From Schizochytrium sp. TIO01 (taxonomy: Eukaryota; Sar; Bigyra; Thraustochytrida; Thraustochytriidae), in the NCBI GenBank assembly GCA_004764695.1, contig SMSO01000036.1:764001-828000 (forward strand): a DNA stretch of 64,000 bases, read 5' to 3'. Under the pieces are notes generated by a model. The model did not search any database, had not been told where the DNA came from, and saw only the letters and a list, made by a program, of their open reading frames with translations. Position 1 is the first letter of the stretch; the number at the start of each line of letters is the position of its first letter. Shown one piece after another: positions 24,579 to 47,815 of the stretch. The translations under genes and the position numbers were made by a program.

Positions 24579-24654
24579 ATGAAAACCTTAAAATCGAAAA
24601 GTATATTTGTGTTTGTGAGCATTTTTACCATACTTTGTCAATACGCAGTAGTGG
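24579..24654 (+). other. Signal-peptide segment of receptor copy 1, out of frame with the body
   Basis: The ATG at 24579 starts a hydrophobic leader (MKTLKSKSIFVFVSIFTILC onward) that ends in the same VVDGRP sequence as copy 2. Copy 1 then has CCC where copy 2 has CC (about 24662-24664), which throws the leader out of frame. The body frame has a TAG at 24649-24651 and so cannot extend up through the leader. Confidence 0.8.
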
Positions 24655-27608
24655 ATGGTCGGCCCAACGAGATTCATCGACAATGGATCCTCGCTAATGT
24701 TCCCAGGTTGTTCGGCGAATTACAACGCACCTTGCTCATTCAATATCGCCTATAGACTTGTTGAAACTATTGTTGAAGATTTTCCAAACTATGGAAACGA
24801 TTCACAGCTGCTTGACGAAGTCAATAACGGTGCATACAATCCTCACGATACACGAAGCTTTGCACCATTTGTTTTCAATGCCTCAAATATGCAATGCATC
24901 GCAAACGGCCGTAACACCACCTTCATTGGTCTTACCCTTGAAGAAATTGCTGATGCACTCGATGTTCCTATTGTTCAGACCAACTTATCAGCCAGACTAT
25001 ACAGTGCTTCAGACTCTGATCACGACGGTTGGGTCACATTTTCTTTCACGTCTGAGGACTATCCTGATGACCCGGTTACACACTTGGGATACGTAAATCA
25101 AGTGAACAGCACAGACAGCAACGAAATATATGTCATACTTGCTATGTTTGCACAACGAACCTCTACTCGAGTTGAGTCTGACTCTTGTCCCACAACAGTA
25201 AATCGAAGATGCAGCATTGAGAACTCAATCTCTCTTGTAGGGAATATGCTAGCACGCGCAATGATGACAGAAACTCCCAAGCAACTCGTTAACCTGTGGC
25301 AAGAGTCATCTTTCCCTTTAGACACATATCTTAGAGAAGGAAACTGGTATTTGTTTGTATATGGGTTCGGGCAAAACTTTCCTCACTATGTTTTCGCACA
25401 TACGAGAACAGATTGGATTGGGAAAACACTGTACGAGATTTCAGAACTTTTCGTCAGTCCTAGCATTCAAAATGGAACTCTGATCCATGAACAATTTGTC
25501 GCTGCTGCTCTTCAAGGTGGTGCATGGGTTGATTACTCCTGGCAAACTAGCTCGACATCAGCAATTGGGCACAAAGTGAGCTACGTAGCAGGTGCAAAAC
25601 TCTTTGGAAACCAATATTACTTCGGAGTTGGTTTCGATCATAAGCGAGATGCTGCTGTTAGCTCAGCACTTTGTCAAACATGCTCTACAAATTATAGTGA
25701 ACCTTGCTCCATTGGAAATGCCCTAGCTATCAGTGCACACGCCGAAGTTGAGCTCCTTGCAAATAATGCAATCAACAAAACCTTTTATGACCTAAGCACA
25801 AGTGAAGAGTTCTACGCAGCTGGCGGATTCGGAGTTCTTATCGTCGATTACGACAACATGACCGTGATGGCTGATAGTCTTGATAGCTCTCTTCGAGGGT
25901 CAAATGTCGAAGCTGCGTTTCTTGCGAGACACATTACCCAAACTGACACAAGTCATAACACGCTGATCGAAATGGCTGATGGGGGTGGTGGCTGGGCACG
26001 ACTACCCAGCGAAGATGGCTTTGGAGATTTTGTTGCAATGGTGAGTCGTGTCAGTGAATATGACCATGACTATTATATTATGACCGGATATATTGATGCG
26101 ATTGCTCCAACGGAGACCGAGTGTTCTGCAGAGTTTGATGCAGGATGCTCTGCAAGTAGTGCGCGGGCCCTAGTAGGACACCTTGTGACTGCCATCAACA
26201 CTTGCGAGTCGGATGAAGAACTTGATGCGATCTTCTCTAACGTTAACAAAGGCCCAACATCAAACTATACTGTCAGCCCGAACTTCTATGCGATTGTGCT
26301 TGATGATGACTATTACATGCGGGCCGTAGGCGATCCTGACTTGCGTGGCTCCTGGAACATATCGACAGAGGTTAGCTTCCTGACGTACATGCGCGAAGAG
26401 CACAGTATTACATCTTTGGGTGAGGACTTTCTGTCTGACTTGCAAACAACTTCCTTTGAGCAAGGTGGAGGTTTTATCAGTGTTGAATGGAACGAAGCTG
26501 GTGGAACGTCCAAGAATGTCACCTTCTTCAGTCTTGTAGCTCAGCACTATGATGATTATGGTGAGCGCAAGAATTTCTTCGTAGCTAGTATCTTCACAAA
26601 TGCTGATGCGCCGACCTTATGCTCAGATGGTTGTCCTGAGAGCTCGTATTGCGTTGACGACGATGATAGTCTGCCGAGGCGCTGTGCATGTGGCTTTTAC
26701 TATGTTGCAGAGTACGAGGAGGAGAATTCAACTTGCGCAACGACACCGACTACAGATGTTACCATGAGCTGTACAATGGATCCTGACAAATCCAGCGTGA
26801 AAAGTGTTAAGGCGATTGCTCGCGCTTTAGGAATCATAAACTGCCTTTTTGCTCTGTTTTGTATCTCGTGGACTGTTCTGAGGCGTAATCATATCATTGT
26901 CAAAGCGTCACAGCCTATGCTACTGATATTGGTAGGACTTGGTACAATCGTATCCTCAATGACAATCTTCGTAATGACGATTGATGACTTTGTGGGGCCG
27001 CCGGCAGGCAATGGAGACAATACCCGAGCCAACCTTGCTTGTATGGCTCAGCCATGGTTTTATGGAGTCGGGTTTGCAATTACATACTGCAGTATGATTG
27101 TTAAACTGGAAAGAGTAGCAAAGGTATTTCGAAATGCTGCACTCATGAAAAAGACTCGAGGGGTGTCCATGAGAGCAACGGTAGCCTCGTTAGTCGGACT
27201 CTTATCAATTGAAGTGTTTGTACTTTTGCTTTGGACCTTTATCGATCCCCTGTATTTCGGACGTCCTGATGATAACCCATTGAACGGTGCGTGTAAGAGT
27301 CCTGCTTCTCAGGCATTCGTCATTGTTCTTGCAATGTACCATTTGATGTTATTGCTTCATGGCGCACGTTTAAGCTATCGATGCCGTAAGGTGAATGGTG
27401 TATTTGCTGAGACCAAGTATCTGAGCTTAGCAATGATTGGTAACCTTCAGGTATTGTTATTAGCATTACCTGTGATTGTTTTGACAGCTGACGATACAGC
27501 AACTTCGATGTTTATTCGCAGCATTGCAGTATTCATCAATGACTTTTCGACCACAGCACTAATATTTTGTCCAAAGATATATTTCAGCATTTTTGGACCA
27601 CCTGAGTC
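24645..27608 (+). repeat. Near-identical duplicated block, unit A
   Basis: Pairs with 32908-35870 at near identity over about 2.96 kb. Similarity starts abruptly at the signal-peptide/mature boundary and ends abruptly after the TM7 FGPPES codons. Flanks, leaders and tails differ. Confidence 0.9.
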
Positions 27609-27741
27609 TTCCAGTGCTGGAGCTGCGGCTTTAACAAAGGTTAAGCCAGGCTATTCAGGCACGAAGTCTGCTGGTGTTACGACTGGTGCAGAGTCTATTG
27701 CGTCATCAGTGAAGACAAATCATGGAAGCGTTCATTCATGA
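24655..27741 (+). CDS. Receptor copy 1: four Cache-like modules + EGF-like + class C 7TM; leader frameshifted
   Basis: Predicted plasma-membrane receptor of the class C GPCR type. The open frame from 24655 encodes 1,028 residues, all but the leader. Four repeated extracellular modules each begin with a C-x7-C head at C19, C178, C343 and C490. Each carries sCache-like strands: a GG(A/G)W-x3-Y-x-W or related segment, a KVSYV-type strand and a final YY-x-G-x-G(F/Y) strand. A Cys-rich EGF-like unit starts at C656. Seven helices follow from about residue 720, with class C hallmarks: KASQP before TM2, FAETKY before TM6, and CPKIYFSIFG at the end of TM7. The Ser/Lys-rich tail is about 45 residues. 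Many N-x-S/T sites fit an ectodomain. An extra C near 24663 separates the body from its leader, so this is either a pseudogene or a sequence error. It is nearly identical to copy 2. The ligand is unknown. Confidence 0.8.
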   Translation: MVGPTRFIDNGSSLMFPGCSANYNAPCSFNIAYRLVETIVEDFPNYGNDSQLLDEVNNGAYNPHDTRSFAPFVFNASNMQCIANGRNTTFIGLTLEEIADALDVPIVQTNLSARLYSASDSDHDGWVTFSFTSEDYPDDPVTHLGYVNQVNSTDSNEIYVILAMFAQRTSTRVESDSCPTTVNRRCSIENSISLVGNMLARAMMTETPKQLVNLWQESSFPLDTYLREGNWYLFVYGFGQNFPHYVFAHTRTDWIGKTLYEISELFVSPSIQNGTLIHEQFVAAALQGGAWVDYSWQTSSTSAIGHKVSYVAGAKLFGNQYYFGVGFDHKRDAAVSSALCQTCSTNYSEPCSIGNALAISAHAEVELLANNAINKTFYDLSTSEEFYAAGGFGVLIVDYDNMTVMADSLDSSLRGSNVEAAFLARHITQTDTSHNTLIEMADGGGGWARLPSEDGFGDFVAMVSRVSEYDHDYYIMTGYIDAIAPTETECSAEFDAGCSASSARALVGHLVTAINTCESDEELDAIFSNVNKGPTSNYTVSPNFYAIVLDDDYYMRAVGDPDLRGSWNISTEVSFLTYMREEHSITSLGEDFLSDLQTTSFEQGGGFISVEWNEAGGTSKNVTFFSLVAQHYDDYGERKNFFVASIFTNADAPTLCSDGCPESSYCVDDDDSLPRRCACGFYYVAEYEEENSTCATTPTTDVTMSCTMDPDKSSVKSVKAIARALGIINCLFALFCISWTVLRRNHIIVKASQPMLLILVGLGTIVSSMTIFVMTIDDFVGPPAGNGDNTRANLACMAQPWFYGVGFAITYCSMIVKLERVAKVFRNAALMKKTRGVSMRATVASLVGLLSIEVFVLLLWTFIDPLYFGRPDDNPLNGACKSPASQAFVIVLAMYHLMLLLHGARLSYRCRKVNGVFAETKYLSLAMIGNLQVLLLALPVIVLTADDTATSMFIRSIAVFINDFSTTALIFCPKIYFSIFGPPESSSAGAAALTKVKPGYSGTKSAGVTTGAESIASSVKTNHGSVHS

Positions 27742-27924
27742 GATATGTATCAGATGAAGCTAGAATTGATAAGTTAGTCTAGGGCTTTCATGATGTCAAG
27801 GAATGGCAGGAGGGACTTGAATTTTCTGCACGCAGTAAATCCTAATTATAGTTAAGGTGTGTTTCTAAACTCTTGGGTTGCTAAGACACAATTCATTCTA
27901 TTTTTATCTTGTATTTCCACTTAC

Positions 27925-28960
27925 TTATTTTTTGTTATTTAGAATTGCAACGTATCCTGAAACACTACTGCGGAGCTTGCCATTCTTTTTGTTGAACGAT
28001 GCATCACTGTAGTTCAAGAGCTTTCACCGACTTTGCACCTTTAAAGGTAAGTGGAGGTGTATTTGTGTACTGTACATAACGGAATGCATGTCGAAGTAAA
28101 TTCATATGCTCTTTACCATTTCTTTGTCCATGACTTTCTAACTGGTGCAGCGTGTAAGCCATTTCAGGACGAGGTTGGTGCAGATACATAAGTGTTCCTA
28201 CAAGAGAACCATAAGCCTCATTCACGGAGTCTTCAGGATATACGCTTAACTCTTAAAGAATGACAGGAATTTTGACGGGATTACATAGATTCATCTTATA
28301 GCGTCTAAGAGCCATTTTAGTATTCCTCTTGACTGATAGTACAAACCTTTCGTAATTTCATGTTTACACGTGTATCAGTTATAACGACAGTCTGTTCTCG
28401 GTTCACGTTAATGCCTAGATTTGCCTGTAGTTTCTCAAAGTGCTCCAAAGGTTCGCATGTAGTCGACATGAATAGTCATGAGTAAGTTCTCACCTATAAA
28501 GAGTGATGCATCAGTCATAGATTGTTTCAGTCTATACTTTTCTATAACAGCAGTCAGATAATCTACGCATCGGCGAGATGCACTTTTAAGACTATAGGGA
28601 CTCTTGCAAAGTCTAAAGCTCATCGATAATGCGAATGTATTAATACTTATCCTCTGGTATGTGCGCTTCCAGTAATGCAGCTGTCACATCAAATAGGCTC
28701 TTGTAAACGCAATGTTTATTGCTACACAAATGCTTACTATATTAACAGTTGGCGAGTAAAGATCGTATATATTTGCTACTTTCTCGTCATAGCTTGCAAC
28801 AGCAACTCTAGCTGTTTATACACTCGATGTTGATGGCTTCTTTGTAGATACCCATCTTGTTCCTATAGGAGAGAAACCTTCTGATACTGTGTCCAGATGT
28901 ACAACTTCCAGAACTCCGGCACGCACAAGATTCCTACAATTTCCCTTTATTGCTTGAACC
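27925..28960 (-). pseudogene. Ty1/copia retrotransposon relic (reverse transcriptase to RNase H)
   Basis: Read on the minus strand from 28960 downward, frame-broken pieces give the copia order: IGTRWV-x2-K (28860 region), YSPTV-x-IVSICVAIN, FDVTAALLEAHIPEDKY (matching the family's DVKTAFL motif), K-SPYSLKSASRR, a VDYM segment where the catalytic YVDD box should be, YGSLVGTLMYLHQ-x-RPEMAYTLHQL, and the RNase H segment YSDASFNKKNG...SGYV. At least one stop (near 28820) and several frame changes are present, and the second catalytic Asp of the RT box is lost. Gag, protease and integrase are not recognised. The element is dead. Confidence 0.85.
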
Positions 28961-29349
28961 CGTAGTAATTACATGAACGTGGTCTCATTGCCTTGTACGC
29001 TGTCGATATTGTTTCACTTTAGAGATCCGGATTTGGTGAGTCTTTCTTCTTTCTCTCAAAGTGTCTATCTTTACAGTAGAAATATGATCCTGAGAGATGA
29101 ATCTGGTCAGCTAGAGGCTAACTATGAAGATGGAGGCGAGAGGCGAGAGGCGAGATTAAGGCTCTGAGAGGATTTTAGAAGGCATGGCAATCTGTGAATG
29201 ATCCGTTAGAGATAAGCTGTCCTTGAAATTAGACTGCTTTATGTTTTAACTAGGATTCTAGAAATACTTGAACTGTGTAAAACACAGTGGATGGGGTTAG
29301 GTTAACTTCTCTCTTTAACCATCCATTTAGATTCCACCATTGATTCTAG

Positions 29350-29505
29350 GGAAAGGGTATAAATACTTTAGGTTCTTGACTTCTAAGCCAGGTAGGTCTG
29401 GTTGTCTAGTTTATTCTATTCTAAGCCTATCTTCATAGGTTCTTACAAAAGGGCGCCTAGAACTCTAGCAATGTCTTGTCAATTAGTTCCTTTGATTGGA
29501 GATCT
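29350..29505. repeat. Diverged direct repeat, left copy
   Basis: Resembles 30082-30217. The best part, 29464-29500, matches 30180-30216 with about four mismatches in 37. A TATAAATA-like sequence lies at its start. Possibly part of a decayed LTR. Confidence 0.6.
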
Positions 29506-30081
29506 CGGCATACGAGTTACTCCTCAAGAAAAATCTTTTCTTTCTATTTTAACACATGTTTGACCGATTTCAAGTCTACCTAATTCTTGCCCCCCCAATT
29601 TGGGATCGTTTTGAAAGTTGAACATAGTATCAGTCTTAACTAGCATCGCCTGTTGCACTGTAGTCAACATTTAGAGGGGCGACTTGTTCACGGGTCTTTT
29701 GGGATCTACACCAGTAATCTCGAGAATATTGAGAACTACCGGCCATATCTAGAGTTCAATCACTGTCAGAGTCACTTTGTGAGTCATCGTGACTGTCCAG
29801 TTGAATTACTGTGGTCTTTTCTGTAGGAATTTGTTTATTTTGTCACCGAGAGCATATGTGTCTCCTTTGTCATGACTTCACCGAAAGCGTCTTTGTCTTT
29901 ACTTCAGCAGTCCTTTCTACAACAAAAGTGTCTCTGTATTTCCTTGTAGTATCTGTACCAAATTACTTTCTTATACCTAGTTGATAAACTACATATTTCA
30001 CATTCCTTAGAATCACATATGGCGGAATCTGAATTGATGGTGAAAATGACACCTTGAACTAGCTTCATCTTTTGTGACTAA

Positions 30082-30217
30082 ATGTGTATACACGCTTTTA
30101 GTACTTGACTTCTCAACCTTGCAAGACTATTCTATTGAAAGCCTTATATACACGAGTCTTACAAAACAATAACTAGAAGTCTAGCAATGTCTTGTCAACT
30201 AGTCCCTTCGATTGAAT
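30082..30217. repeat. Diverged direct repeat, right copy
   Basis: Partner of 29350-29505, in the same orientation about 0.7 kb away. Shared blocks are ACTTGACTTCT, TTCTATT, TCTTACAAAA and TCTAGCAATGTCTTGTCAA. Confidence 0.6.
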
Positions 30218-32814
30218 ATTTCAGCGCAAGGCTTAGAGGATATGAGTCATCATTGCTATATAGCTTTAACATGCAGATCGCACCAATATGATTATGCGTC
30301 TGTTTTCAGGAAAATAAGTTAGCTTGCAAAGTAATGTAACAGCAGATTCAAATCGACCCAAAGCAGCCTAGTTTAAAACCATCTAAACATGGGCATCTAT
30401 TCAATAGCCTTTAAGCAATCAGAATCAAGTTTCTTTACTCATAATCATAGCTGGCATACCTTTTCCACAATATAGAGTGAGGTCCTAGCTATCTATAACA
30501 AAAATAATCTTACAAACAATTCAAACACCATATTGATCGTATATCCATATTTTGTTAGACAATTGCTCCAAACCGTACATAGCACCTAGTGTCGTGCACT
30601 TTAGTATTGTGTTTCTCACGCTTACCCAGTTGCATCAGATCAGTGTTATACCTAATATGCCTACCAGCCTTCCAGATATGGATTTCTTTAAAGAATGGAT
30701 CATTTGAGTATAGTCAAACATTTCCAACGGCCATTATAAAAAAAAATAAAAAAAAATCTTAATTTATTTTATTTTATTCATAATCAAATATAGATATTGT
30801 AATAGTAATAATAATTCGATTGGATGACTATCATTTTGCTCATTGAATCAGCTTACTTCTTTTACTTTAGTGTTTTATTATGCATTATTATTCATATTAA
30901 TATTCTCTACATTATTAACCATATTATATATTTATTTAAATAAATAAAAGCCTATGTAGTAGTACTGCCTACTACGTATTCATTTGTACATGTAATATAT
31001 ATACACGAGAGAGATAGGGCACCTAGCCCTAAAATGATACGATGAACTCCAAAAAGATCTCTGTTTCCTTCTGCCAATTGTTATGAATGTTTATCTATTA
31101 TCTTACTTGACGGTACAAGCTGTTTTAGATTCTCGCGGTTTTGTCACGAAACTTAGAAATAAAAATATTCTATTGAACATGATTCGAAGCAGGAACAGAA
31201 AAATGCATCAAGATACCAACCTGTAAGTACATGTTTCTTTTGTGTACATGATTTCTTCAAAACATAATGCCAAGTATCGCCTCTCCGTATAGCTAAGCTA
31301 TCTCCAGATCGAGCAAGAACATTAAAGTTTAAGCGGAGGTACGTTAAAGGCCGTCTAGAAGGAAATTCACTAAATTCTTTCACCCTCATCAACCCGTTTT
31401 GCGTACTGGTGTATTTCGAAACTCAATCGCACGATTTCATGCCACAGAAGAGTCTGCTTCACTTCAACTTGTATTCGTTACTTCCCACTCTGTCGTAAAT
31501 AAAATTAGATACAAGCAGAACACAGTAACAAGCAAATCTTTTATGAAAACCTACTCTGAAGAGCCCTCACCTCAGCAATGCTGTCTTCCAATATTACTCT
31601 AACTAGAGAACTTAAGTTTTGCTTATGTTTAGCTTTAGCGACTCAGAATGTGAAATACTCTTCTGGAAGATTTTCAACACTAGATACTGTGCTAGCTTCA
31701 AGATTTTAGTCAAATTCACTTTTTTTAAAAACAAGGAGGATGCCAATGTACCTCATTTCTTACAACGTATCGACCCAAAGAAAAACGAATATGTCTAGAT
31801 ATGATATGGGTCAGGTTAAATGGGAGTGGCACGTCAATTCTCGGAATGGGTAACTGCTCGCATGGCAGATCCAAAATACTCTATACGGAAGCTCGCACAG
31901 AAACAACAACGAAAATCAAAGGAGCTTTGCAAAGTCTACATACAACAGCAAATCTAAGTTTCGTTGGTTGAATTGCTGACATAAGCAGCAACTTCAGCAT
32001 ATGCATGTAGGTTCCAATTTGTTACAGTCGCCATCATTCTATCATTCTGAATTGTAGATTTATCTTTACCACGACTTAGAAGATGGAGTGACTCAATTTA
32101 AGGTTTGTAAACTCGAATACTCTTTAGTTAAAGCTTTCTGGTTTACCCGAACTGCCAGACAAACAATACACGTCTGGGTACCTACCAGTGGCATAGGTAG
32201 GGAGGTAGTGAGGTAGTGAGGTTAGGAAGTTAGAACTTTTCATTTTAGAGGAAGATGTAGTATTTTACACTTTTTCTTAACTAAACTTTTGTACCTCGGA
32301 AGCCTGAACTAAAATAATGCGATTCAAAAATAAAGGTGGAACAGTAGACAGAACAGTTCAAAACCAAACACCATGAAACGGAGAGCGCGTATTACGGATT
32401 GCAAGATGGAAATCCGTTTCCGCTGGATATGTTCGTAGATTATGTATAGATGTAGTCTAAAGTTCATTACTACATATTTTGAAACTGCCTTATTGTTTTT
32501 ATTTATTGACTTCCTATAAACACAATTAAAAAAAATACATTATAATTAGAGTGCCGAAACAGAAACATAGCAGAACGACAGAACGACACCAACTGACTTC
32601 TAGATACTGCTGGCTTCCTTTCATAGAATTACTAAAACTTAAACGATATCCTTTTAAAATTTGCGCAAACGCTAAAAAACTCTTGTAGAGAGAATATAGT
32701 TGCTTTGACATATGAGATTTGAAAATTAAATTAATCCTTCAAAAAAAATAGCAAACCTGCAACGCTTCAAAGCTTTATGCTCCTATATATTATACAACAA
32801 TCGCAATATATTAT

Positions 32815-35800
32815 ATGCATAAGGTTAATAGCACGAAAATGTGTAAATATGACATCATTACAAAGCTACCAGTGCTTCTCTTTTTTAGTTTTATCTCTAA
32901 TCAACTAGCAGTAGTAGATGGTCGGCCAACGAGATTCATCGACAATGGAACTTCGCTCATGTTCCCAGGTTGTTCGGCGAATTACAACGCACCTTGCTCA
33001 TTCAATATCGCCTATAGACTTGTTGAAACTATTGTTGAAGATTTTCCAAACTATGGAAACGATTCACAGCTGCTTGACGAAGTCAATAACGGTGCATACA
33101 ATCCTCACGATACACGAAGCTTTGCACCATTTGTTTTCAATGCCTCAAATATGCAATGCATCGCAAACGGCCGTAACACCACCTTCATTGGTCTTACCCT
33201 TGAAGAAATTGCCGATGCACTCGATGTTCCTATTGTTCAGACCAACTTATCAGCCAGACTATACAGTGCTTCAGACTCTGATCACGACGGTTGGGTCACA
33301 TTTTCTTTCACGTCTGAGGACTATCCTGATGACCCGGTTACACACTTGGGATACGTAAATCAAGTGAACAGCACAGACAACAACGAAATATATGTCATAC
33401 TTGCTATGTTTGCACAACGAACCTCTACTCGAGTTGAGTCTGACTCTTGTCCCACCACAGTAAATCGAAGATGCAGCATTGAGAACGCAATCTCTCTTGT
33501 AGGAAACATGCTAGCACGCGCAATGATGACAGAAACTCCCAAGCAACTCGTTAACCTGTGGCAAGAGTCATCTTTCCCTTTAGACACATATCTTAGAGAA
33601 GGAAGCTGGTACATTTTCGGAACTGGTTTCGGGGAAAATTTCCCTCATTACTTCTTCACACATATTAGAACAGATTGGATTGGGAAAACCCTGTACGAGA
33701 TTTCAGAACTTTTCGTCAGTCCTAGCATTCAAAATGGAACTCTGATTCCATGAACAATTTGTCGCTGCTGCTCTTCAAGGTGGTGCATGGGTCGATTACT
33801 CCTGGACTACGAGCACTGTAGCTGCAATTGGGCACAAAGTGAGCTACGTAGCAGGTGCAAAACTCTTTGGAAACCATTATTACTTCGGAGTTGGTTTCGA
33901 TCATAAGCGAGATGCTGCTGTTAGCTCAGCACTTTGTCAAACATGCTCTACAAATTATAGTGAACCTTGCTCCATTGGAAATGCCCTAGCTATCAGTGCA
34001 CACGCCGAAGTTGAGCTCCTTGCAAATAATGCAATCAACAAAACCTTTTATGACCTAAGCACAAGTGAAGAGTTCTACGCAGCTGGCGGATTCGGAGTTC
34101 TTATCGTCGATTACGACAACATGACCGTGATGGCTGATAGTCTTGATAGCTCTCTTCGAGGGTCAAATGTCGAAGCTGCGTTTCTTGCGAGACACATTAC
34201 CCAAACTGACACAAGTCATAACACGCTGATCGAAATGGCTGATGGGGGTGGTGGCTGGGCACGACTACCCAGCGAAGATGGCTTTGGAGATTTTGTTGCA
34301 ATGGTGAGTCGTGTCAGTGAATATGACCATGACTATTATATTATGACCGGATATATTGATGCGATTGCTCCAACGGAGACCGAGTGTTCTGCAGAGTTTG
34401 ATGCAGGATGCTCTGCAAGTAGTGCGCGGGCCCTAGTAGGACACCTTGTGACTGCCATCAACACTTGCGAGTCGGATGAAGAACTTGATGCAATCTTCTC
34501 TAACGTTAACAGAGGCCCAACATCAAACTATACTGTTAGCCCGAACTTCTATGCGATTGTGCTTGATGATGACTATTACATGCGGGCCGTAGGCGATCCT
34601 GACTTGCGTGGCTCCTGGAACATATCGACAGAGGTTAGCTTCCTGACGTACATGCGCGAAGAGCACAGTATTACATCTTTGGGTGAGGACTTTCTGTCTG
34701 ACTTGCAAACAACTTCCTTTGAGCAAGGTGGAGGTTTTATCAGTGTTGAATGGAATGAAGCTGGTGGAACGTCCAAGAATGTCACCTTCTTCAGTCTTGT
34801 AGCTCAGCACTATGATGATTATGGTGAGCGCAAGAATTTCTTCGTAGCTAGTATCTTCACAAATGCTGATGCGCCGACCTTATGCTCAGATGGTTGTCCT
34901 GAGAGCTCGTATTGCGTTGACGACGATGATAGTCTGCCGAGGCGCTGTGCATGCGGCTTTTACTATGTTGCAGAGTACGAGGAGGAGAATTCAACTTGCG
35001 CAACGACACCGACTACAGATGTTACCATGAGCTGTACAATGGATCCTGACAAATCCAGCGTGAAAAGTGTTAAGGCGATTGCTCGCGCTTTAGGAATCAT
35101 AAACTGCCTTTTTGCTCTGTTTTGTATCTCGTGGACTGTTCTGAGGCGTAATCATATCATTGTCAAAGCATCACAGCCTATGCTACTGATATTGGTAGGA
35201 CTTGGTACAATCGTATCCTCAATGACAATCTTCGTAATGACGATTGATGACTTTGTGGGCCGCCGGCAGGCGATGGAGACAATACCCGAGCCAACCTTGC
35301 TTGTATGGCTCAGCCATGGTTTTATGGAGTCGGGTTTGCAATTACGTACTGCAGTATGATTGTTAAACTGGAGAGGGTGTCGAAGATTTTCCGAAATGCT
35401 GCACTCATGAAAAAGACTCGAGGGGTGTCCATGAGAGCAACGGTAGCCTCGTTGGTCGGACTCTTATCAATTGAAGTGCTTGTACTTTTGCTTTGGACCT
35501 TTATCGATCCCCTGTATTTCGGACGTCCTGATGATAACCCATTGAATGGTGCGTGTAAGAGTCCTGCTTCTCAGGCATTCGTGATTGTTCTTGCAATGTA
35601 CCATTTGATGTTATTGCTTCATGGCGCACGTTTAAGCTATCGATGCCGTAAGGTGAATGGTGTATTTGCTGAGACCAAGTATCTGAGCTTAGCAATGATT
35701 GGTAACCTTCAGGTATTGTTATTAGCATTACCTGTGATTGTTTTGACAGCTGACGATACAGCAACTTCGATGTTTATTCGCAGCATTGCAGTATTCATCA

Positions 35801-35994
35801 ATGACTTTTCGACCACAGCATTAATATTTTGTCCAAAGATATATTTCAGCATTTTTGGACCCCCTGAGTCGTCTGGAGCCGGGACCTCGGCACTTGTAAA
35901 AACTAAAGGCTCTAATAATAAATCAGGAGGAAACAGTAAGGTTGAATCGATAGTCTCAACTGTTCGAACTGAAAAATCAAGTTTTAATTACTAG
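32815..35994 (+). pseudogene. Receptor copy 2: frameshifted class C 7TM receptor with Cache-like modules
   Basis: Same architecture as copy 1. The ATG at 32815 (or the in-frame ATG at 32839) starts a hydrophobic leader that is in frame with the mature region. Two single-base indels relative to copy 1 break it. An extra T at about 33746-33747 stops translation at 33753, inside Cache-like module 2. A missing G in the run at 35257-35259 shifts the frame just after TM2, giving a stop at 35359. The rest of the TM domain continues in another frame to 35994. All parts are otherwise well preserved, so decay is recent or the indels are sequencing errors. The C-tail (SSGAGTS and following) is closer to copy 3 than to copy 1. 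Confidence 0.8.
32908..35870 (+). repeat. Near-identical duplicated block, unit B
   Basis: Partner of 24645-27608. Divergent islands inside the match lie at 33604-33668 and 33804-33824 (module 2), and at about 35371-35393 (intracellular loop 2). Confidence 0.9.
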
Positions 35995-38376: not shown

Positions 38377-41300
38377 ATGGTTCATAGAGATAGACGCTGT
38401 TCGACCCACTACATGCTTATTGCGTTGCTTGCGTTCTGCTCCTGTATTTCACAAGCGCATGCAACAAGACAAGAGCGATTTATCGACCCGGGACTCACTT
38501 ACTCAATTCCTGGATGCTCTGCTAATTATAATGCACCTTGCTCATTCAATCTTGTAAATCGCCTCGTGAAAGAAATTGCAAAAGACATTCTTAATGTAAA
38601 TAATGACACTAAGGTTTTAGAGAAAGTTAATTCTGAAGGGTATGACCCAGTTGAAACAAGCCACTTTCATCCCTACGTTTTCGATGCAGCTACCATGGAA
38701 TGTGTTGCAAGTGCTCGCAATGCTAGCTTTATTGGAAAAACCATAGAAGAAATTGCGTTGGAAGTGAATGTGCCGATCAAACAAGAACACTTGTCTGAAG
38801 AGTTCTATAATGCATCTTTACCAAGTCACCATGGATGGCTTCAATTCATCTTCCTTTCTGAAGAGTTTGAAGATGACCCGGTGACCCATTTAGCCTATCT
38901 GATGCAGGCTCAATCAAGCAGTGGGAAATCATACGTCATCATGTCCTGCTTTGCTCAGAGAACTGCTACCCGTGTTGAGTCAGAGTCATGTCCATATTCA
39001 GTGAATCGGCGCTGTAGCCTTGAGAATGCTCTTTCTTTAGTGGGTAACATGATATATAGGGCAATTACTGTAGAATCAACTGCACAGCTTCGGATATTAT
39101 GGGAAGATGCTACATTCCCTCAGGATGCATACCTTCGGGAAGGGAACTTTTACAACTTTATGTTCGGTTTTGGAAATTCCACACCTCATTACTCTTACGC
39201 TCACATTCGCGATGATTGGATTGGGCTCTCAATTGATGAAATATCTCAGCTCTTTGTCAGTACAGATATTCAGAATGGTACACTTATTCATGAAAACTTC
39301 GCAAACGGAGCCAAGTCAGGAGGAGCATGGGTGGATTATACCTGGACTACCTCAGATGCAGAAAATATCGCATACAAGGTGAGCTATGTAGCAGGACTTA
39401 ATCTTTTCGGTAGCACTTACTATGTTGGTGCAGGTTTCAATCATGAACGTGACGATGAAGTGCATAGTGCGCTGTGCGAAACATGTTCAGCAAATTATAG
39501 CGAGCCATGCTCGATCGGAAACGCACTATCTCTTAGTGCACATGCAGAAGTTGAGCTTCTAGCAAATGGAGCAAACGCAGAGACATTTCAGCATATAAAT
39601 AGTGACGATATCTTCACTATAAACGGAGGTTTCGGTGTTCTAATCGTGGATTATCAAAACGGAACAGTAATGTCCGACAGTGCGCACAATTCAACTATCG
39701 GCCAAGATGTTGGATTTGCATTCTCACGACGCCACATTACAAACCGCAACATCAGCCATGCTCTTCTAAAAAGTAAAGCCAGCAGCGGCAGCGGATGGAT
39801 TAGGCTTCCAACAGAACCTGGCTACGGAGATTACATTGCGATGGTGAGTAGGTTGAGTGAAGATAATGAAGACTACTACGTAATGACAGGTTATCTTGCA
39901 ACAAGGGCCCCTACAGTCGAAATTTGTTCCGCGATGTACTCAGGTAGCTGCTCTGCTGTGAATACCCGCGCACTTGTTGGAGAAGTAGTCACTGCGTTGC
40001 AGACATGTTCATCCGATGCAGAATTTCAAAAAGTTTTAGATGAAATCAATATGGGTGTCAACTCCAGCTTCACTGTCCAACCAAATTTCTATGCTCATGT
40101 ACTTGATGAAGACTTTAATTTGATTGCATTTGGTGACTCTTCACTTTGGAAGGGGTGGAGTTCGGAATCTCCAGAAAGCTTCCTCACCTATGTACGAGAG
40201 GCGCATAGTGTAACTTCAGTCGGAGAAGACTTTCTACAAGACATGAAGGCATCTGCTTTCGAGCAAGGTGGTGGCTTTGTAACAGTTGAATGGGTGGAAG
40301 CGGGTTCGGGCGCATCAAATGTTACATTCTTCAGTCTTATTGCCCAGCATACAAATGATTATGGTGTAAGAAAAAACTATTACGTCTCAAGCTGGTACTT
40401 CAATGCAGATCCCCCAACGCTATGTTCTGATGGCTGCCAAGAAAACTCTTACTGTGTGAGTGACGGGAATGATGGCCTCCCTGGCCATTGTGAGTGTGGT
40501 TTTTATTATGTTGAGCAAAGCAACGACTCTGGGGAAGACACTTGCAGTGAGACGACTACGAGTAATCCATTTATGACGTGCGCATACGATCCAGACAAGG
40601 AAACAACAAGTAAAGTCAAAACAATTGCTCGTGCTCTTGGTGCAATTAACTGTATTTTTGCGCTTGGTTGTATAGTTTGGACTATTTATATGAGGAATTA
40701 TACGATAGTCAAAGCCTCGCAGCCATTGTTGCTGGTTCTTGTTGGAGTTGGCACAATTGTCTCTTCAATGACTATTTTTGCAATGACTATTGATGATATT
40801 GTGGGTCCACCAGCAGGTGATGGCGACAATAATCGAGCGAATGGAGCTTGTATCGCACAAACCTGGTTCTATGGCATTGGCTTTGCTATTACATATTGTA
40901 GCATGATTGTAAAGCTTCGCAGAGTAGGCAAGATATTTCAACATGCAGCACAGATGAAGAAAGCACGAGGAGTTTCAATGGGTTCTACATTTGCTTCACT
41001 CCTTGCACTGCTATCTGTTGAAGTAATAGTTCTCATTGTGTGGACATCAACAGACACTTTGCGCTTTGTCCGCCCTGAAGATAGTCCACTCAATGGGGCT
41101 TGTGAAAGTTCAAATGCTAGAGCTTTTGTTATCATCCTCGCGCTATACCATCTTCTACTTCTCTTGTATGGAGCACGATTGAGTTATCGTTGTAGAAAAG
41201 TTAATGGTGTGTTCGCAGAAACCAAGTATCTCAGCTTAGCAATGATTGGAAATCTGCAGGTGCTTCTGCTAGCTTTGCCAGTGATTGTTTTGACTGCTGA

Positions 41301-41559
41301 CGACGCCGCAACATCAATGTTCATTCGAAGTATTGCTGTATTCATTAACGACTTTTCTACAACAGCTTTGATCTTCTGCCCAAAGATGTATTTTAATGTG
41401 TTTGGTCCTCCTGATTCATCTGGTGCTGGTACATCAGTACTAGGTAGGACAACCACACCAAAGAGAAGGCTTGTCGCTCCGATCGGGTCTCATTCATCAG
41501 TAGGAAAAACTGATGTTGCCAGCACAAGGAAATCTACCACTTCTTCATTGGGCAACTAA
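38377..41559 (+). CDS. Receptor copy 3: intact four-Cache-like, EGF-like, class C 7TM receptor
   Basis: Intact 1,060-residue predicted membrane receptor and the best model for the family. The signal peptide covers about residues 1-29 (core MLIALLAFCSCISQAHA). Four Cache-like modules open with C-x7-C heads at C47, C205, C370 and C517. Each ends in a YYV-x2-G(F/Y)-like strand, best seen in module 2 (GGAWVDYTW, KVSYVAG, YYVGAGF). An EGF-like unit with six or more Cys spans about 683-730. TM helices lie at about 752-775, 783-806, 826-849, 873-892, 912-932, 952-974 and 981-1006. C825 (top of TM3) and C909 (loop 2) match the conserved class C disulfide. TM7 ends in FCPKMYFNVFG, the class C PK-x-Y signature. 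The cytoplasmic tail of about 55 residues is rich in Ser, Thr, Arg and Lys. There is no Venus flytrap domain. Ligand unknown; G-protein coupling is an inference. Confidence 0.9.
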   Translation: MVHRDRRCSTHYMLIALLAFCSCISQAHATRQERFIDPGLTYSIPGCSANYNAPCSFNLVNRLVKEIAKDILNVNNDTKVLEKVNSEGYDPVETSHFHPYVFDAATMECVASARNASFIGKTIEEIALEVNVPIKQEHLSEEFYNASLPSHHGWLQFIFLSEEFEDDPVTHLAYLMQAQSSSGKSYVIMSCFAQRTATRVESESCPYSVNRRCSLENALSLVGNMIYRAITVESTAQLRILWEDATFPQDAYLREGNFYNFMFGFGNSTPHYSYAHIRDDWIGLSIDEISQLFVSTDIQNGTLIHENFANGAKSGGAWVDYTWTTSDAENIAYKVSYVAGLNLFGSTYYVGAGFNHERDDEVHSALCETCSANYSEPCSIGNALSLSAHAEVELLANGANAETFQHINSDDIFTINGGFGVLIVDYQNGTVMSDSAHNSTIGQDVGFAFSRRHITNRNISHALLKSKASSGSGWIRLPTEPGYGDYIAMVSRLSEDNEDYYVMTGYLATRAPTVEICSAMYSGSCSAVNTRALVGEVVTALQTCSSDAEFQKVLDEINMGVNSSFTVQPNFYAHVLDEDFNLIAFGDSSLWKGWSSESPESFLTYVREAHSVTSVGEDFLQDMKASAFEQGGGFVTVEWVEAGSGASNVTFFSLIAQHTNDYGVRKNYYVSSWYFNADPPTLCSDGCQENSYCVSDGNDGLPGHCECGFYYVEQSNDSGEDTCSETTTSNPFMTCAYDPDKETTSKVKTIARALGAINCIFALGCIVWTIYMRNYTIVKASQPLLLVLVGVGTIVSSMTIFAMTIDDIVGPPAGDGDNNRANGACIAQTWFYGIGFAITYCSMIVKLRRVGKIFQHAAQMKKARGVSMGSTFASLLALLSVEVIVLIVWTSTDTLRFVRPEDSPLNGACESSNARAFVIILALYHLLLLLYGARLSYRCRKVNGVFAETKYLSLAMIGNLQVLLLALPVIVLTADDAATSMFIRSIAVFINDFSTTALIFCPKMYFNVFGPPDSSGAGTSVLGRTTTPKRRLVAPIGSHSSVGKTDVASTRKSTTSSLGN

Positions 41560-44500
41560 AAATAGTATTGTTTTTCAATGCTTGCCTTGTGGCCTTCGCC
41601 CATCTAACACTGTTTTTCCTGTCACCCTTCAGGTCAAATGTTAACTATTCTAACAAACAGAACAATGAAGAATGATTTTGAAGAAAGTACAGTTTAAGCT
41701 ATTCTTAACTTAAATGCTCTCCTTCCTTTATTTTGATGTAACATGCGTTGGAAATAATGGGTAACTAAACTATAAGTCACTACCCAGTGTGTGCTTCGTC
41801 AACAGTTAGAACTAATTTTTATAATTACGTAGGTGCCCCATGTCTTGAGCTCCAAACTCCTGCACCGAAGAACACTTCGCTCCCGGTTGCATTTATCCAT
41901 AAATGTTTTCAAAGATATAAAATTTCTAGGGCTACGTTCATGGGCGCCCTAAGCTTCTATCCTAAGATTGTGAAATTGAAGTTCAAGGCCTAGTTGGCTT
42001 GCTTAGCTCATGCCTGTAAAAACTATTAGTGAAATTTCTAAATTTTGTGGTTCCGTGTGAGATCTCAGGAGAGAGCGCAGAACACCCATCACAATAGTTT
42101 TCTTGCTATGGATTTCATGTTGCCATTTCCCCTCTGTAAGCATTTTGCAGACCTTGTTTTTGACATGGAGACAAATTCGCAAATTCAAAACCAGCTTTAT
42201 TAAAAAAAGCCGCTATACTTTCCAAGGTTAATTGCTTATTGGCGAAGACAATGGTTAGATACTCAGGTTGTAGCACAGGTCGAAATATTTAACGGATCTT
42301 TTCCAAAAGAGCGCAAGCAGTTTCTAGTTGCAAAAGAAGTAATTGAGTCTGATATTTTTCTCTGTTTATGGTTCTCTGTTTTCAGGATAGTGTGCAATCT
42401 GAAGGGATATTTTGGTGCTGCAGTAGTTCTCTAGTTGGATCCTTCAGTATGAAAGGATTTCATGCGTCTTCTTGACAAAGTTTAAAGCAGTAAGTTAACA
42501 AGAGCGTCAAGCTATTGCAGACATTCCTTCAAATTTTATTTTGACGTTGGACTTGTGAGCACCTTTTAAAATCTTGTTTTAAAAAATTAAATAAATAAAT
42601 ACATGGTAGTACCTACTGATTTCACATGTAGTATAATATGATAAGACTAAAAGCTGTCCATTATCTATAGTCCCTGAGGTCTATATATATAATCATAATC
42701 CTTAAAAGAGTACTCAGGATTGAGTTCAACAACTTACTTTAATTATTTTTATCCGTTTAAATTCACAACTTCTTGTTCTCAGAGACCTGAAAACGCTATA
42801 TACTGCTTATATCGAAGCTATGAGCTAGTTTACTTCTAGAATAGATAACATCCGAACTGGAGGTGTAATGAATTAGGGTTTCAAGAGATATCGAATGTGA
42901 TCAGGTTCAAATTCAAATGTTTTTTGCGTTGCTTAATCTTGATTGCACTTTTTATTATTTGTTTATCTACTAACAAAGAAATAAAATATAGAAGAGGCCT
43001 AAATATAAATGTAATCGTTTTTGTTTCTTTAAACATTTTAAAAAAGTAATTTTAAAAATAACTTATTTAGGTAATAATAAGAAGAATAAATATATATGTT
43101 CGAGACATAGTTTCACTGTTTTTTATTCATTAATTTTAAGTTTGGAAAACTAAGAACTCTTGTCAAAGTTGCAAATATGAAACATTTTATCAAACTGTTC
43201 AGAATAGAAAAAATGAGGAGAGCATATCAAATATAAACTTTTGTAAATTTTGTAAATAACTTTTGATAAATATTCAATCAAATTCCAATACACGCAGACA
43301 GGAAATATGTGGTTCAAATTGAATCGTTCATTAACAGCTCGCATGCATGTTTTTCAATTATGGGGGGTGCTTACTACATCGTATAGTTTTACATCATATT
43401 ATAGAATTGGGAATTATTTTTAAGTGCTCTTTGCTCATCTGCCTTGAAAAAGGTCGAGAATGAAAGGGTATCAGTAGTAACAAGGCAAAATGTCCACTGC
43501 AAAGGCCTGGTATTATCAGTACATATACAGTACCAACCGGGCGCCCTTATATTTGTTCCAAGATACGGTTGCTTGCACACCACTTTGGTAAAGGGACTAT
43601 AGTGACGACTCATTTTCAAAGTAAAATATAACGGTTTTGCGGGTCGACGTGGAAGACTCTTTCTAGTATTCTTTTCATTTTATAGATAATTTAAAAGGAA
43701 ACTGAACAAAGAACTAAGTGATCTGCTGTACAATCATCTAATAAAGAGTTTAACTTCATACTGTCTTCCACACCACGAGCACTCGCGAAATAGTTTTTAG
43801 AATGCATTCGTTACAGAATTTTTTTTGGAATAAATACGAACTGCCGCAGTTCAAGGTGGTGCTTATTTCATCAAGAAAAATATGAGAAATCGAGAAAGAA
43901 AATTAAAATAATTAAGAAACACGAAGGAAAATAAAAAGTAGAAGGGATTTTGAAATAATAGCTAGCTATACCTAGTACCCTACTCCCAAATGCAACGCCG
44001 AAAGCCAAAAAGAACAAAAGAATATATCCTAACAAAACTTAGATTCGATTATCGTTTACTCTATGGATATCCTTATGGTCAAATGCACGCACTTGTACTG
44101 AGTATACATAGGTACAGCAACTTTTTAAATTAATGAATGTCGTTTCAAAAAAAAAAAAAAAAAAAAACTATTTAAATTGCAATGCAAGAATACCTCATCG
44201 AATAATTCAACGTACACAATCCGGCCGAACAAAATAACATTGAAAGCAGCTTTTGATTTTCATTATTTGAATTTTACACTTGTTCATGGTAGTGTAGTTA
44301 AATTCCCTCGGATCCGGTAAAGTCTAAGAAAAAGTTTATTTGAAATTTGTTTATGTTTCAATTCTATTCTCTCTTTATATTTTTTTATCATTAAAGAAAT
44401 AAAATAAAATGAAACCTGATACTGCTGCCAGGTTCAGATTCGTTACAAATGTACCACCGCGTATTGCACATATTTGAATCGCTCTATTTTTAGTAACTAT

Positions 44501-44626
44501 ATATTAAATGTATTCTTCTGATCACGAGGGTTTCTTTCATGAAGTCAGATTCTTAACGATTAGCAGACAAAGCAAACTCCTAATTGCCGCGGCAAGTTTT
44601 TCATATCTTCTTGAGCTGGTGAAGAA
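41560..44626. other. Spacer between receptor copies 3 and 4
   Basis: AT-rich 3 kb with many short A and T runs and no credible ORF. It includes a 21-base A run at 44147-44167 and holds the regulatory DNA of copy 4. Confidence 0.5.
44147..44167. repeat. Homopolymer run of 21 A
   Basis: Uninterrupted A run about 460 bp upstream of receptor copy 4. It could be a poly(A) remnant of a retroposed sequence, but no such sequence is recognisable beside it. Confidence 0.85.
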
Positions 44627-47600
44627 ATGTTGCGGACACGAACCAACTCGATTTCAATGCGCTCTTTGGTTATCGCCTTCGTTGCTTTCGCAGTCACAGT
44701 CGCCTCTTGCAATGGTGATAGGCCCACGCGTTTCTTCGATTCTCAAAGCACACCGGCATTTCCAGCTTGCTCGGCTAGTTATGCAACTCCCTGCGCCTTC
44801 AATAATGTTTATCGACTTGTTGAAAGAGTTAGCTCCTTAATTGAAGCATCGAGCAATTTAGAAAGTCTCTTTACATCAATCAACAATGCATCGGAAAACG
44901 TACAAGACGGATTTTTTTTTGCACCATATGTTTTTAACTCAACATCCATGCGATGTATTGCAAATGGGAGAGATATCTCTTTCTATAATTTGACGATTGA
45001 AGAGATTGCACAAAGCTTAGGTGTTACATCAGTGCAAGATGACCTTTCTAGTGAGATGCACTCTACTGCAGATGAATCAGAAGACGGATGGTTTAAATTT
45101 GTCTTCGTGTCAGAAGATTATGTAGGCGAGCCCATTGCTCACTTAGGCTATGCCAAGCAGGCTCAGGATTTTAATAACAACACCTACATTGTAATGGCTA
45201 GTCTAGCATACAGACTTCTTCCAAGAATGGATATTGATGCTTGTCCAACATCTGTAAATAGAAGGTGCAACATACAAAATGTCCGTTCCTTAGTTGGGGC
45301 AGCCCTCTACGAGGCTATGACTGCAGAGAGTGAAGCTTCACTTCGCGAAGTATGGAGCGAAATTACATTTCCTCGACCAGACGACATTACATTTCGTGAT
45401 CAATCATGGTATATCTTTGTTTTTGAATTTGGTGACGGCAACGATGGCGACTGCTACGCTCATCTCAATTATAATTGGATTCGATGGAATTTATACGGAA
45501 TCTCCAAACTATTTATCGAAGATGTGCAACAACAAGATGGTTCTGTCATTCATGAGCACTTTAGCGAAGCAGCGCTTCAGGGAGGAGGCTGGGTAAAGTA
45601 CAACTGGACAACTTCCCCATCAGTACCTGCTCTGCTGAAAGTGAGTTATGTGACTGGTGTGGAACTGTTTAACCGCAAGTACTATATCGGAGCAGGGTTT
45701 AATCACATGCGCGACCCTGTAAATGCAGGACCTGTCTGTAGCCAATGTTCGGCTAGCTATAGCAGCCCTTGTGCGATCGGCAATGTACTTTCGCTAAGCG
45801 CACATACTGAAGTTGAACTTCTTACAAAAGCTGAGGCAAACGTAGTTTTTACTCATATTAGCGAAGGCCAAGCATTCAAAATGGATGGTGGTTTTGGAAT
45901 TATCCTCGTTGATTACAACCAAACTGTTATGGCAGATAGTCTTTTCCCTGATAGTTTAAACCAGGATGCAGAGAGTTCCTTCGCAGAGCGCAGCATCCTG
46001 TTTGAATATTCCACTCATGAATCACTTATGGCGCTGGCTGATGGTGGTGGCGGTTGGATACAGTTATCTGGGATTGATGGCCACAGTGATTTTATTGCCT
46101 TTGTCAACAAAATCAGCAAGTTTGAGCGAAGCTACTACTTGCTCAATGGATATTACAATGAGCGTGCCCCCACTGTTGATGAATGTTCTGCAGAATATTC
46201 AGACGAGTGCAGTGAGATCAATGCAAAAGCCCTGGTCGGAGACGTAGTAACGTCCATTCAAGTTGCATCATCCGATTCAGAATTTACAAGTATTTTGGAA
46301 AGCATCAATACAGGTAAGAACTCTAGTTACTTTATCACGCCAAATTTCTATGCTATCGTGCTCGATAGCGATTTCAACCTACTTGCGCATGGTGATACCG
46401 ACTTATTTCAAACCTGGAACATATCAGTTCCTGATAGCTACATGTCCTTCGTCCAACAAGAAGAAGGGGTTTCATCTCTCGGAAATGATTTCGAGGCCGA
46501 ACTTCGCTCAGCAGCATTTAAAGTGGGTGGGGGCTTCGTTTCTTTAACATGGAACACACCTGAGCAAAACTTGGTCAAGACTGCCTACGTTCAAGCCGCA
46601 AAACGAGTGTCATCAACCACAGGAGCCAGCCTCACCTATTACGTTTTGACAATGTTCATTAATGCGCCTGCACCTACCTTGGACTCAGCTGGATGTCCAA
46701 CATATTCGTATGGTGTGAATCATAATGATGGTCTTCCAGTCCGATGCGAGTGCGGATTCTACTATATGCCTGAGTACTCAGTTGTCGAAAATGAAAATTG
46801 TGTTGAGACTTTTGTCAGCAACTATTCCATGACCTGCATTGCTGACCCAAGCAAGACCAGTATTGATGGAGTTAAGAATATTGCAATGGCACTAGGCATG
46901 ATCAATTGTCTATTTGCATTCGCTTGTATAATGTGGACTGTTGCTATGCGTCGACATGTAATTGTCAAGGCCTCGCAGCCAATGCTGCTTGTTCTTGTTG
47001 GGGTAGGCACGATTGTTTCATCCACTACAATATTTGTTATGGTCATTGATGATAAGGTCGGTCCACCAGCTGGAGAGGGAATAAATGATCAAGCAAACTG
47101 GGCATGCATGGCACAACCCTGGTTCTACGGCGCAGGCTTTGCAATTACGTATTGTAGCATGATCGTAAAACTTCGTCGCGTTGCAAAGGTTTTTAAAAGC
47201 GCAGTGAAAATGTCGAAGAAGGTTCGCGGTGTTTCCTTCAAGATGACATTGCTCATTTTGATGGGACTGTTGAGTGTTGAGTTCCTCATTTTAATCATTT
47301 GGACAACAAGCGATCCCTTGAAGTTTGTTCGCCCGGAAGAAAGCCCATTAAATGGCGCTTGCGAAAGTACAAATGCACGTACATTCCTGGAGCTCATGGC
47401 AGTTTATCACCTTATTCTTCTTTTTTACGGTGCCTATCTAAGTTATCGCTGCCGCAAGATGAATGGTGTCTTTGCAGAGACGAAGTACCTGAGTTTAGCT
47501 ATGCTTGGGAATCTCCAAGTTCTTTTGCTTGCTTTGCCTGTCATAGTTCTGACAGCTGATGATGCGGAAACCTCTATGTTTATTCGATCTATTGCTGTCT

Positions 47601-47815
47601 TTCTCAACGACTTTTCTACGACAGCTCTAATCTTTGGACCTAAGGTTTACTTTAGCATATTCGGAGCTCCTGCCGGATCTGGGGATGGAGGTTCCGTGTT
47701 TAAGTCAAGTGATCCTAAAAGCTCTGCCACAAACAAGACTAATCGCACAGCAATTGCGCCATCTAGCGTGGCTTTTCGTTCTTCAATGGTATCCAAGACT
47801 GAAGCAGACGAATAA
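44627..47815 (+). CDS. Receptor copy 4: intact, most divergent four-Cache-like, EGF-like, class C 7TM receptor
   Basis: Intact 1,062-residue receptor with a signal peptide (core SLVIAFVAFAVTVASC) and the same order of parts. C-x7-C heads are at C48, C206, C374 and C520. The EGF-like unit at about 684-730 has lost two cysteines present in the other copies: the first is D686, and the one in the Y-C-V segment is now Gly. The 7TM domain keeps KASQP, FAETKY and GPKVYFSIFG. The residue before P-K is Gly, where the other copies have Cys. Module 2 differs most from copies 1-3 in its ligand-side strands (SWYIFVFEFGDGNDGDCYAH). The start at 44627 follows the AAGAA context; an internal Met11 is an alternative. 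It is diverged enough to suggest a different ligand, which is inference. Confidence 0.9.
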   Translation: MLRTRTNSISMRSLVIAFVAFAVTVASCNGDRPTRFFDSQSTPAFPACSASYATPCAFNNVYRLVERVSSLIEASSNLESLFTSINNASENVQDGFFFAPYVFNSTSMRCIANGRDISFYNLTIEEIAQSLGVTSVQDDLSSEMHSTADESEDGWFKFVFVSEDYVGEPIAHLGYAKQAQDFNNNTYIVMASLAYRLLPRMDIDACPTSVNRRCNIQNVRSLVGAALYEAMTAESEASLREVWSEITFPRPDDITFRDQSWYIFVFEFGDGNDGDCYAHLNYNWIRWNLYGISKLFIEDVQQQDGSVIHEHFSEAALQGGGWVKYNWTTSPSVPALLKVSYVTGVELFNRKYYIGAGFNHMRDPVNAGPVCSQCSASYSSPCAIGNVLSLSAHTEVELLTKAEANVVFTHISEGQAFKMDGGFGIILVDYNQTVMADSLFPDSLNQDAESSFAERSILFEYSTHESLMALADGGGGWIQLSGIDGHSDFIAFVNKISKFERSYYLLNGYYNERAPTVDECSAEYSDECSEINAKALVGDVVTSIQVASSDSEFTSILESINTGKNSSYFITPNFYAIVLDSDFNLLAHGDTDLFQTWNISVPDSYMSFVQQEEGVSSLGNDFEAELRSAAFKVGGGFVSLTWNTPEQNLVKTAYVQAAKRVSSTTGASLTYYVLTMFINAPAPTLDSAGCPTYSYGVNHNDGLPVRCECGFYYMPEYSVVENENCVETFVSNYSMTCIADPSKTSIDGVKNIAMALGMINCLFAFACIMWTVAMRRHVIVKASQPMLLVLVGVGTIVSSTTIFVMVIDDKVGPPAGEGINDQANWACMAQPWFYGAGFAITYCSMIVKLRRVAKVFKSAVKMSKKVRGVSFKMTLLILMGLLSVEFLILIIWTTSDPLKFVRPEESPLNGACESTNARTFLELMAVYHLILLFYGAYLSYRCRKMNGVFAETKYLSLAMLGNLQVLLLALPVIVLTADDAETSMFIRSIAVFLNDFSTTALIFGPKVYFSIFGAPAGSGDGGSVFKSSDPKSSATNKTNRTAIAPSSVAFRSSMVSKTEADE

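Follow-up and report, generated by a model that had tools for sequence, protein, structure and literature searches.

A tandem array of class C receptor genes with four Cache-like extracellular modules in a thraustochytrid genome

mGlyR has shown that a Venus flytrap is not obligatory for a class C G-protein-coupled receptor (GPCR) (PMC12716839): mGlyR/GPR158 and GPR179 carry a ligand-binding Cache domain on an epidermal growth factor (EGF)-like domain (PMC12716839, PMC12834959). A 2025 survey found Cache domains in GPCRs and the mGlyR Cache/EGF module to be metazoan-only, and stramenopiles are absent from the list of its extracellular-domain screen (PMC12716839). A protein joining Cache_1 to the class C seven-transmembrane (7TM) domain 7tm_3 had been reported in Thalassiosira pseudonana in 2012/2013 (PMC3251606; PMC3727952 Fig. 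4). Here we describe a locus of Schizochytrium sp. TIO01 in which four receptor genes, all on the forward strand between 24579 (first ATG) and 47815 (last stop), each encode a signal peptide, four homologous modules, an EGF-like cysteine unit and a class C 7TM domain. Positions refer to the window, the whole 64,000-nucleotide stretch analysed (C35:764001-828000 of a 64.06-Mb, 37-contig eukaryotic assembly), and gene integrity was judged from stop-to-stop reading frames. The four genes in one orientation listed by a first-pass annotation of this sequence were all found at their coordinates, although as assembled just two of them, copies 3 and 4, are intact (Table 1). We favor, with a probability of roughly three in four, the reading that they belong to a family of GABA-B-like class C GPCRs, restricted to this lineage, that sense small molecules through Cache domains and signal through G proteins.

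Receptor core, Cache-like modules and linker

The 7tm_3 model (PF00003) matches every copy at 116-133 bits against a cut-off of 33.5 (E-values of 3e-33, 2e-35 and 2e-38 for copies 1, 3 and 4). The hallmarks from which the class had first been read, namely KASQP, the cysteine pair of extracellular loops 1 and 2, FAETKY and PKxYF, are all present, and together with these matches they bear out the assignment. Furthermore, K..R in transmembrane helix (TM) 3, an acidic residue (E) in TM6 and PK in TM7 are invariant in seven aligned family rows; these are activation residues of class C/GABA-B receptors according to Port 2013 (PMC3727952). When the 7TM profile was compared with solved receptors, GABA-B2 (1.8e-18, 68.9 bits) and GABA-B1 (2.5e-16) came first and the mGluRs next, against 2e-6 (29.0 bits) for GPR179 and 4e-5 (24.7 bits) for GPR158, a comparison of scores and not a tree. 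No Venus-flytrap match (ANF or periplasmic-binding-protein) was seen at E<=1 in any window copy.

The ectodomain consists of four units of 147-167 residues, each opened by a spaced cysteine pair. In profile-profile comparisons of seven-member profiles, all six module pairs aligned over 118-149 columns (E-values of 4e-6 to 7e-12), while reversed or column-shuffled controls reached 0.012 at best, across 5-57 columns only. In addition, hidden Markov models of single modules recovered the other modules in paralogues. Matches to Pfam sCache_2 or dCache_2 above the curated cut-off are confined, within the window, to module 2 of copy 3 (sCache_2, 27.7 bits; cut-off 25) and of copy 4 (sCache_2, 28.3 bits; dCache_2, 29.7 bits against 26.5); in a paralogue elsewhere (L001), module 4 matches sCache_2 at 1.1e-7. 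The models proposed for checking at first pass thus fared differently: 7tm_3 is found in every copy and sCache_2 in copies 3 and 4, but dCache_1 has no match anywhere in the genome. A module profile run against PDB sequences returned just a chance-level Cache match (4k08, E-value 1.3) and an EF-hand match at 0.01.

For module 1 of copy 3, taken from a full-length AlphaFold2 model built from three alignment rows, the closest solved structures are chemoreceptor Cache domains (4k08: Z-score 12.4, root-mean-square deviation (rmsd) 3.8, 129 residues). Module 2, modeled separately from 14 module sequences, reached a predicted local distance difference test score (pLDDT) of 81 and has the element order helix-helix-strand-strand-helix-helix-three strands. 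It matches 4k08 more closely (Z-score 13.5, rmsd 3.2, 132 residues), and 5g4y, TlpB (3ub6) and 2qhk also match. Upadhyay et al. (PMC4822843) give 2QHK, 3UB6 and 4K08 as the structures of sCache_2. These models confirm the predicted Cache fold for modules 1 and 2, and modules 3 and 4 are putative Cache domains assigned by homology. The earlier claim of four Cache-like modules therefore holds for the mutual homology of all four and for the modeled fold of the first two; folds that are not Cache-like, which the first-pass annotation had named as refuting its reading, were not what the models of modules 1 and 2 returned, and this check came out in favor of that reading.

Between module 4 and TM1 lies a unit of six cysteines in EGF-like order (C..C..C..CxCxFYY..C), and the succession of Cache, EGF-like unit and 7TM is kept in all family members. 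The cysteine pattern noted at first pass is present, but no Pfam EGF model exceeds its cut-off in any family member (best EGF_MSP1_1, E-value 0.095, in L001). In copy 4 (linker at about 46676-46855) cysteines 1 and 3 of the pattern are both lost, as an EGF C1-C3 disulphide bridge would predict.

Table 1. Coordinates of the receptor array, its domains and related genes (window positions unless a contig is given)
Feature	Position	Strand	Remarks
Copy 1	24579..27741	+	Full architecture; single frameshift at 24663-24665 as assembled
Copy 1 modules 1-4	24703-25179, 25180-25671, 25672-26115, 26116-26613 (whole 24703..26613)	+	
Copy 1-copy 2 divergence island	25342..25404	+	Codons 231-251, module 2 strands beta1-beta2
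Copy 1-copy 2 divergence island	25528..25560	+	Codons 293-303, module 2 beta3 and following loop
Copy 2	about 32815..35994	+	Architecture of copy 1; two frameshifts as assembled
Copy 3	38377..41559	+	Intact single open reading frame, 1060 aa
Copy 3 module 1	38509..38982	+	sCache fold (model)
Copy 3 module 2	38983..39474	+	sCache fold (model); Pfam sCache_2 2.9e-6
Copy 3 module 3	39475..39918	+	Cache-like by module homology and secondary-structure order
Copy 3 module 4	39919..40416	+	Cache-like by homology
Copy 3 EGF-like cysteine unit	40417..40599	+	Interval from module 4 to TM1
Copy 3 class C 7TM (7tm_3)	40630..41385	+	Nearest solved relatives GABA-B receptors
Copy 4	44627..47815	+	Intact single open reading frame, 1062 aa
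Copy 4 modules 1-4	44762-45235, 45236-45736, 45737-46177, 46178-46675 (whole 44762..46675)	+	
Copy 4 class C 7TM	46880..47644	+	7tm_3 1.7e-38
Two four-Cache paralogues	C36 (3.29 Mb)		In tandem
Two four-Cache paralogues	C33 (2.60 and 2.615 Mb)		
L018	893-2569 (genome C30:8399371-8401047)	+	559-aa class C receptor

The family in the genome and the history of copies 1 and 2

Ectodomain searches of the genome gave eight four-Cache genes at three loci. Outside the window, each of the four genes is a single open reading frame (ORF) of 1055-1079 codons, with an ectodomain 36-39% identical to that of copy 3, and the intact single-ORF members, six in all and within the same size range, are spread over the three loci. 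In a tree of 7TM domains the family is monophyletic (99/99), and these results support the lineage-restricted expansion proposed at first pass. Its sister (99/99) is L018, in which one bacterial-type MCP-like_PDC_1 domain of the Cache superfamily (75.6 bits; cut-off 27) stands directly before a GABA-B-like 7TM. This domain (PDC), the only MCP-like_PDC_1 found in the genome, matches 3lic at 2.5e-17; a search of GTDB genomes gave no confirmed bacterial donor for it, and the whole receptor had no confirmed relative among viral contigs. The PDC could not be aligned to the modules, so the clade may have begun with a single Cache-type sensor that was later replaced, or may have gained Cache twice. 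The idea that the lone PDC of L018 gave rise to all four modules has no sequence support.

Across the genome, 37 matches to the class C 7TM were counted. Ectodomains of the other 29 genes include ANF_receptor (10), OpuAC (5), PBP_like_2 (2), Peripla_BP_6 (1), phosphonate-binding (1) and MCP-like_PDC_1 (1), and none of the other class C ORFs on which the module profiles were tried was detected as a further four-Cache member. The receptors of OpuAC (glycine-betaine) type, L022, L024, L025, L026 and L028, cluster at C7:836-887 kb; PBP_like_2 ectodomains are those of L009 and L012, and the phosphonate-binding one is that of L031. Long ectodomains are seen in L008 (C3) and L021 (C34); that of L008 matches no Pfam model and has a Cys-rich unit (CFLCDKCLACEEGS...) ahead of TM1. 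The genes of this genome are intron-poor. They include at least 12 for G-alpha, a large number for a protist, one of which, on the small contig C8, scores the same as a C30 copy.

Copies 1 and 2 are 98% identical across 2.97 kb (24639-27608 versus about 32901-35870), from the end of the signal peptide to the start of the C-terminal tail, with unalignable flanks. Their 49 changed codons are clustered, 15 of them falling in codons 231-251 and six each in codons 293-303 and 820-826, and the 21-codon maximum was reached in none of 20,000 random placements. The third of these islands lies at the junction of TM3 and intracellular loop 2 (ICL2). Outside the islands, dS is 0.025 and dN/dS is 0.11 (p 9e-7), indicating purifying selection, and inside them synonymous and non-synonymous changes are both high. 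The simplest reading is that gene conversion homogenized most of the two copies and that older differences remain in the sheet of module 2, in ICL2 and in the tail, where we infer that selection has kept them. Because synonymous changes are raised in the islands as well, positive selection is not claimed. The array is not a simple case of the tandem duplication proposed at first pass: copies 1 and 2 look homogenized by gene conversion.

The same comparison bears on whether copies 1 and 2 are pseudogenes, which would leave an array with only two functional receptors. As assembled, copy 1 has one frameshift, in a CCC/CC run just downstream of the signal peptide that puts the latter out of frame with the remainder, and copy 2 has two, at about 33740-33750 (within module 2) and 35257 (TM2-TM3 region), with none in copies 3 and 4 or in the four outside paralogues. 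However, the purifying selection acting since the last homogenization speaks for proteins that worked until recently, and the three frameshifts would then be either very young or errors left unpolished in the assembly. All three are single-base indels in short runs within near-identical repeats, where assembly polishing often fails, and the gene for polyunsaturated fatty acid (PUFA) synthase is likewise frame-broken, at the edge of its acyl carrier protein (ACP) repeats. Loss of function in copies 1 and 2 is thus a serious possibility, but recently functional receptors remain the more probable account.

The break in the PUFA synthase gene, between its N-terminal part and the ACP repeats, hints at assembly indels at the repeats or at an intron. 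The large subunit of this enzyme (C4:608161-617209; L035, L036) has at least seven tandem ACP domains. A diatom origin of the assembly was rejected: Silic_transp has no match in the genome, and the tandem-ACP PUFA synthase, the expanded G-alpha set and the scarcity of introns indicate a thraustochytrid. In the window, the array is adjoined by an intact IFT140 gene at 16927-21708, which fits a flagellated zoospore stage, and an eRF1-like gene lies at 51017-51805 on the minus strand.

A candidate sensing mechanism

In the mechanism that we propose, four extracellular sCache_2-type domains in tandem, seated on a Cys-rich EGF-like linker, would have taken the place of the Venus-flytrap sensor. One or more of the Cache pockets would bind a small dissolved molecule, in the manner of bacterial sCache chemoreceptors (small carboxylates, urea), the linker would pass the movement to the 7TM, and this GABA-B-like domain would activate, at the plasma membrane, one of the many heterotrimeric G proteins of the genome. 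The receptors may let a marine heterotroph whose zoospores are flagellated sense its environment. Ligand binding and the module responsible for it, dimerization, G-protein coupling and environmental sensing are what we infer for these receptors. The ligands of sCache relatives are small carboxylates (5g4y) or urea and amides (TlpB), and by analogy these compounds may serve as leads to the ligand class only.

Several observations weigh against this reading. The full-length AlphaFold2 model has a pLDDT of 34.9, with module 1 alone usable (about 65-83), and modules 3 and 4, whose predicted element order is that of the other modules, stay under 50. As assembled, two of the four copies in the window carry frameshifts. 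In addition, some Cache domains are structural, and not every module need bind a ligand. The four modules might even form a structural or adhesive stalk, with protein partners, surfaces or force as the stimulus instead of a small molecule: placed in series they would make a long stalk, the Cache domains of calcium-channel alpha2delta subunits are also among the structural matches of the module models, and no ligand is known. Against such a stalk, the top structural matches are ligand-binding chemoreceptor sCache domains, and the differences between copies 1 and 2 concentrate in sheet strands of module 2, where known Cache structures would place the pocket. We therefore regard a stalk as unlikely and retain small-molecule sensing.

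A joint reading of the locus, which we put forward tentatively and judge somewhat doubtful as a whole, is that Cache, EGF-like and class C domains were assembled independently in a stramenopile, a bacterial-type sCache on a GABA-B-like 7TM having been multiplied to four, in convergence with animal mGlyR. Together the modules would then recognize more than one ligand; module 2 would be a diversifying recognition module, shielded from the homogenization of copies 1 and 2 by gene conversion.

Comparison with known receptors

The first-pass annotation was unaware of any family described with this combination, a claim contradicted by mGlyR/GPR158, GPR179 and the Cache_1 + 7tm_3 protein of T. pseudonana, and therefore too strong. 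In mGlyR/GPR158 and GPR179, too, a Cache domain stands where a Venus flytrap would, and an EGF-like domain and a class C 7TM come after it. They are animal receptors with a single Cache, whereas the thraustochytrid family has four sCache_2-type modules, a 7TM that is GABA-B-like by score and no evidence of RGS7 coupling. Given the identical domain order, the four-Cache family could be a stramenopile branch of the mGlyR/GPR158-GPR179 lineage, with Cache, EGF and 7TM inherited from a common eukaryotic ancestor. The far stronger 7TM scores to GABA-B than to GPR179 or GPR158, the sCache_2-type modules in fours and the unrelated-looking PDC of the sister receptor in the same genome make this very improbable; the layout was probably built independently and is convergent with that of mGlyR.

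TP_7830 of T. pseudonana, also from a stramenopile, shares a Cache-superfamily domain on a class C 7TM, but its match is to Cache_1, and its description, given in one figure and a single line of text, includes no four-module repeat or EGF-like unit. The GABA-B receptors (GB1/GB2) are the nearest solved 7TM relatives and share the TM3 K/R, TM6 acidic and TM7 PK residues, but have an ANF/Venus-flytrap ectodomain without a Cys-rich linker. Bacterial sCache_2 chemoreceptors (Adeh_3718, 4k08; 2qhk; H. pylori TlpB, 3ub6; the carboxylate Cache 5g4y) resemble modules 1 and 2 in modeled fold (Z-scores of 10-13.5); in them one module sits between two TM helices and feeds an MCP/kinase, whereas here four serial modules sit on a GPCR. 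Fungal and amoeboid class C receptors (OpuAC, PBP_like_2, SBP, BMP; PMC3251606) also have bacterial-type binding domains swapped onto a class C 7TM, but these are periplasmic-binding-protein folds and not Cache arrays. According to PMC6050695, InterPro domains of GPCR family 3, of GABA-B and of G-alpha are enriched in thraustochytrid genomes; its passages found on this class C expansion give no ectodomain architecture, and its text has 0 matches to "cache". No description of a four-Cache class C receptor was found in the literature searched (subscription literature lay outside the search).

Taken together, these comparisons extend the succession of Cache, EGF-like and class C domains, whose Cache/EGF part the survey took to be metazoan-only, to a distantly related protist whose 7TM belongs to another lineage. 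They suggest that the uptake of new sensor folds comes easily to class C receptors and has happened on more than one occasion. The family also offers orphan receptors open to testing, in a group that can be cultivated in the lab and is used in biotechnology, and it is a natural experiment in Cache sensing by several modules. Relative to the known systems, what is new is the four tandem sCache_2-type modules, the GABA-B-like core and the order of Cache, EGF-like unit and 7TM outside animals.

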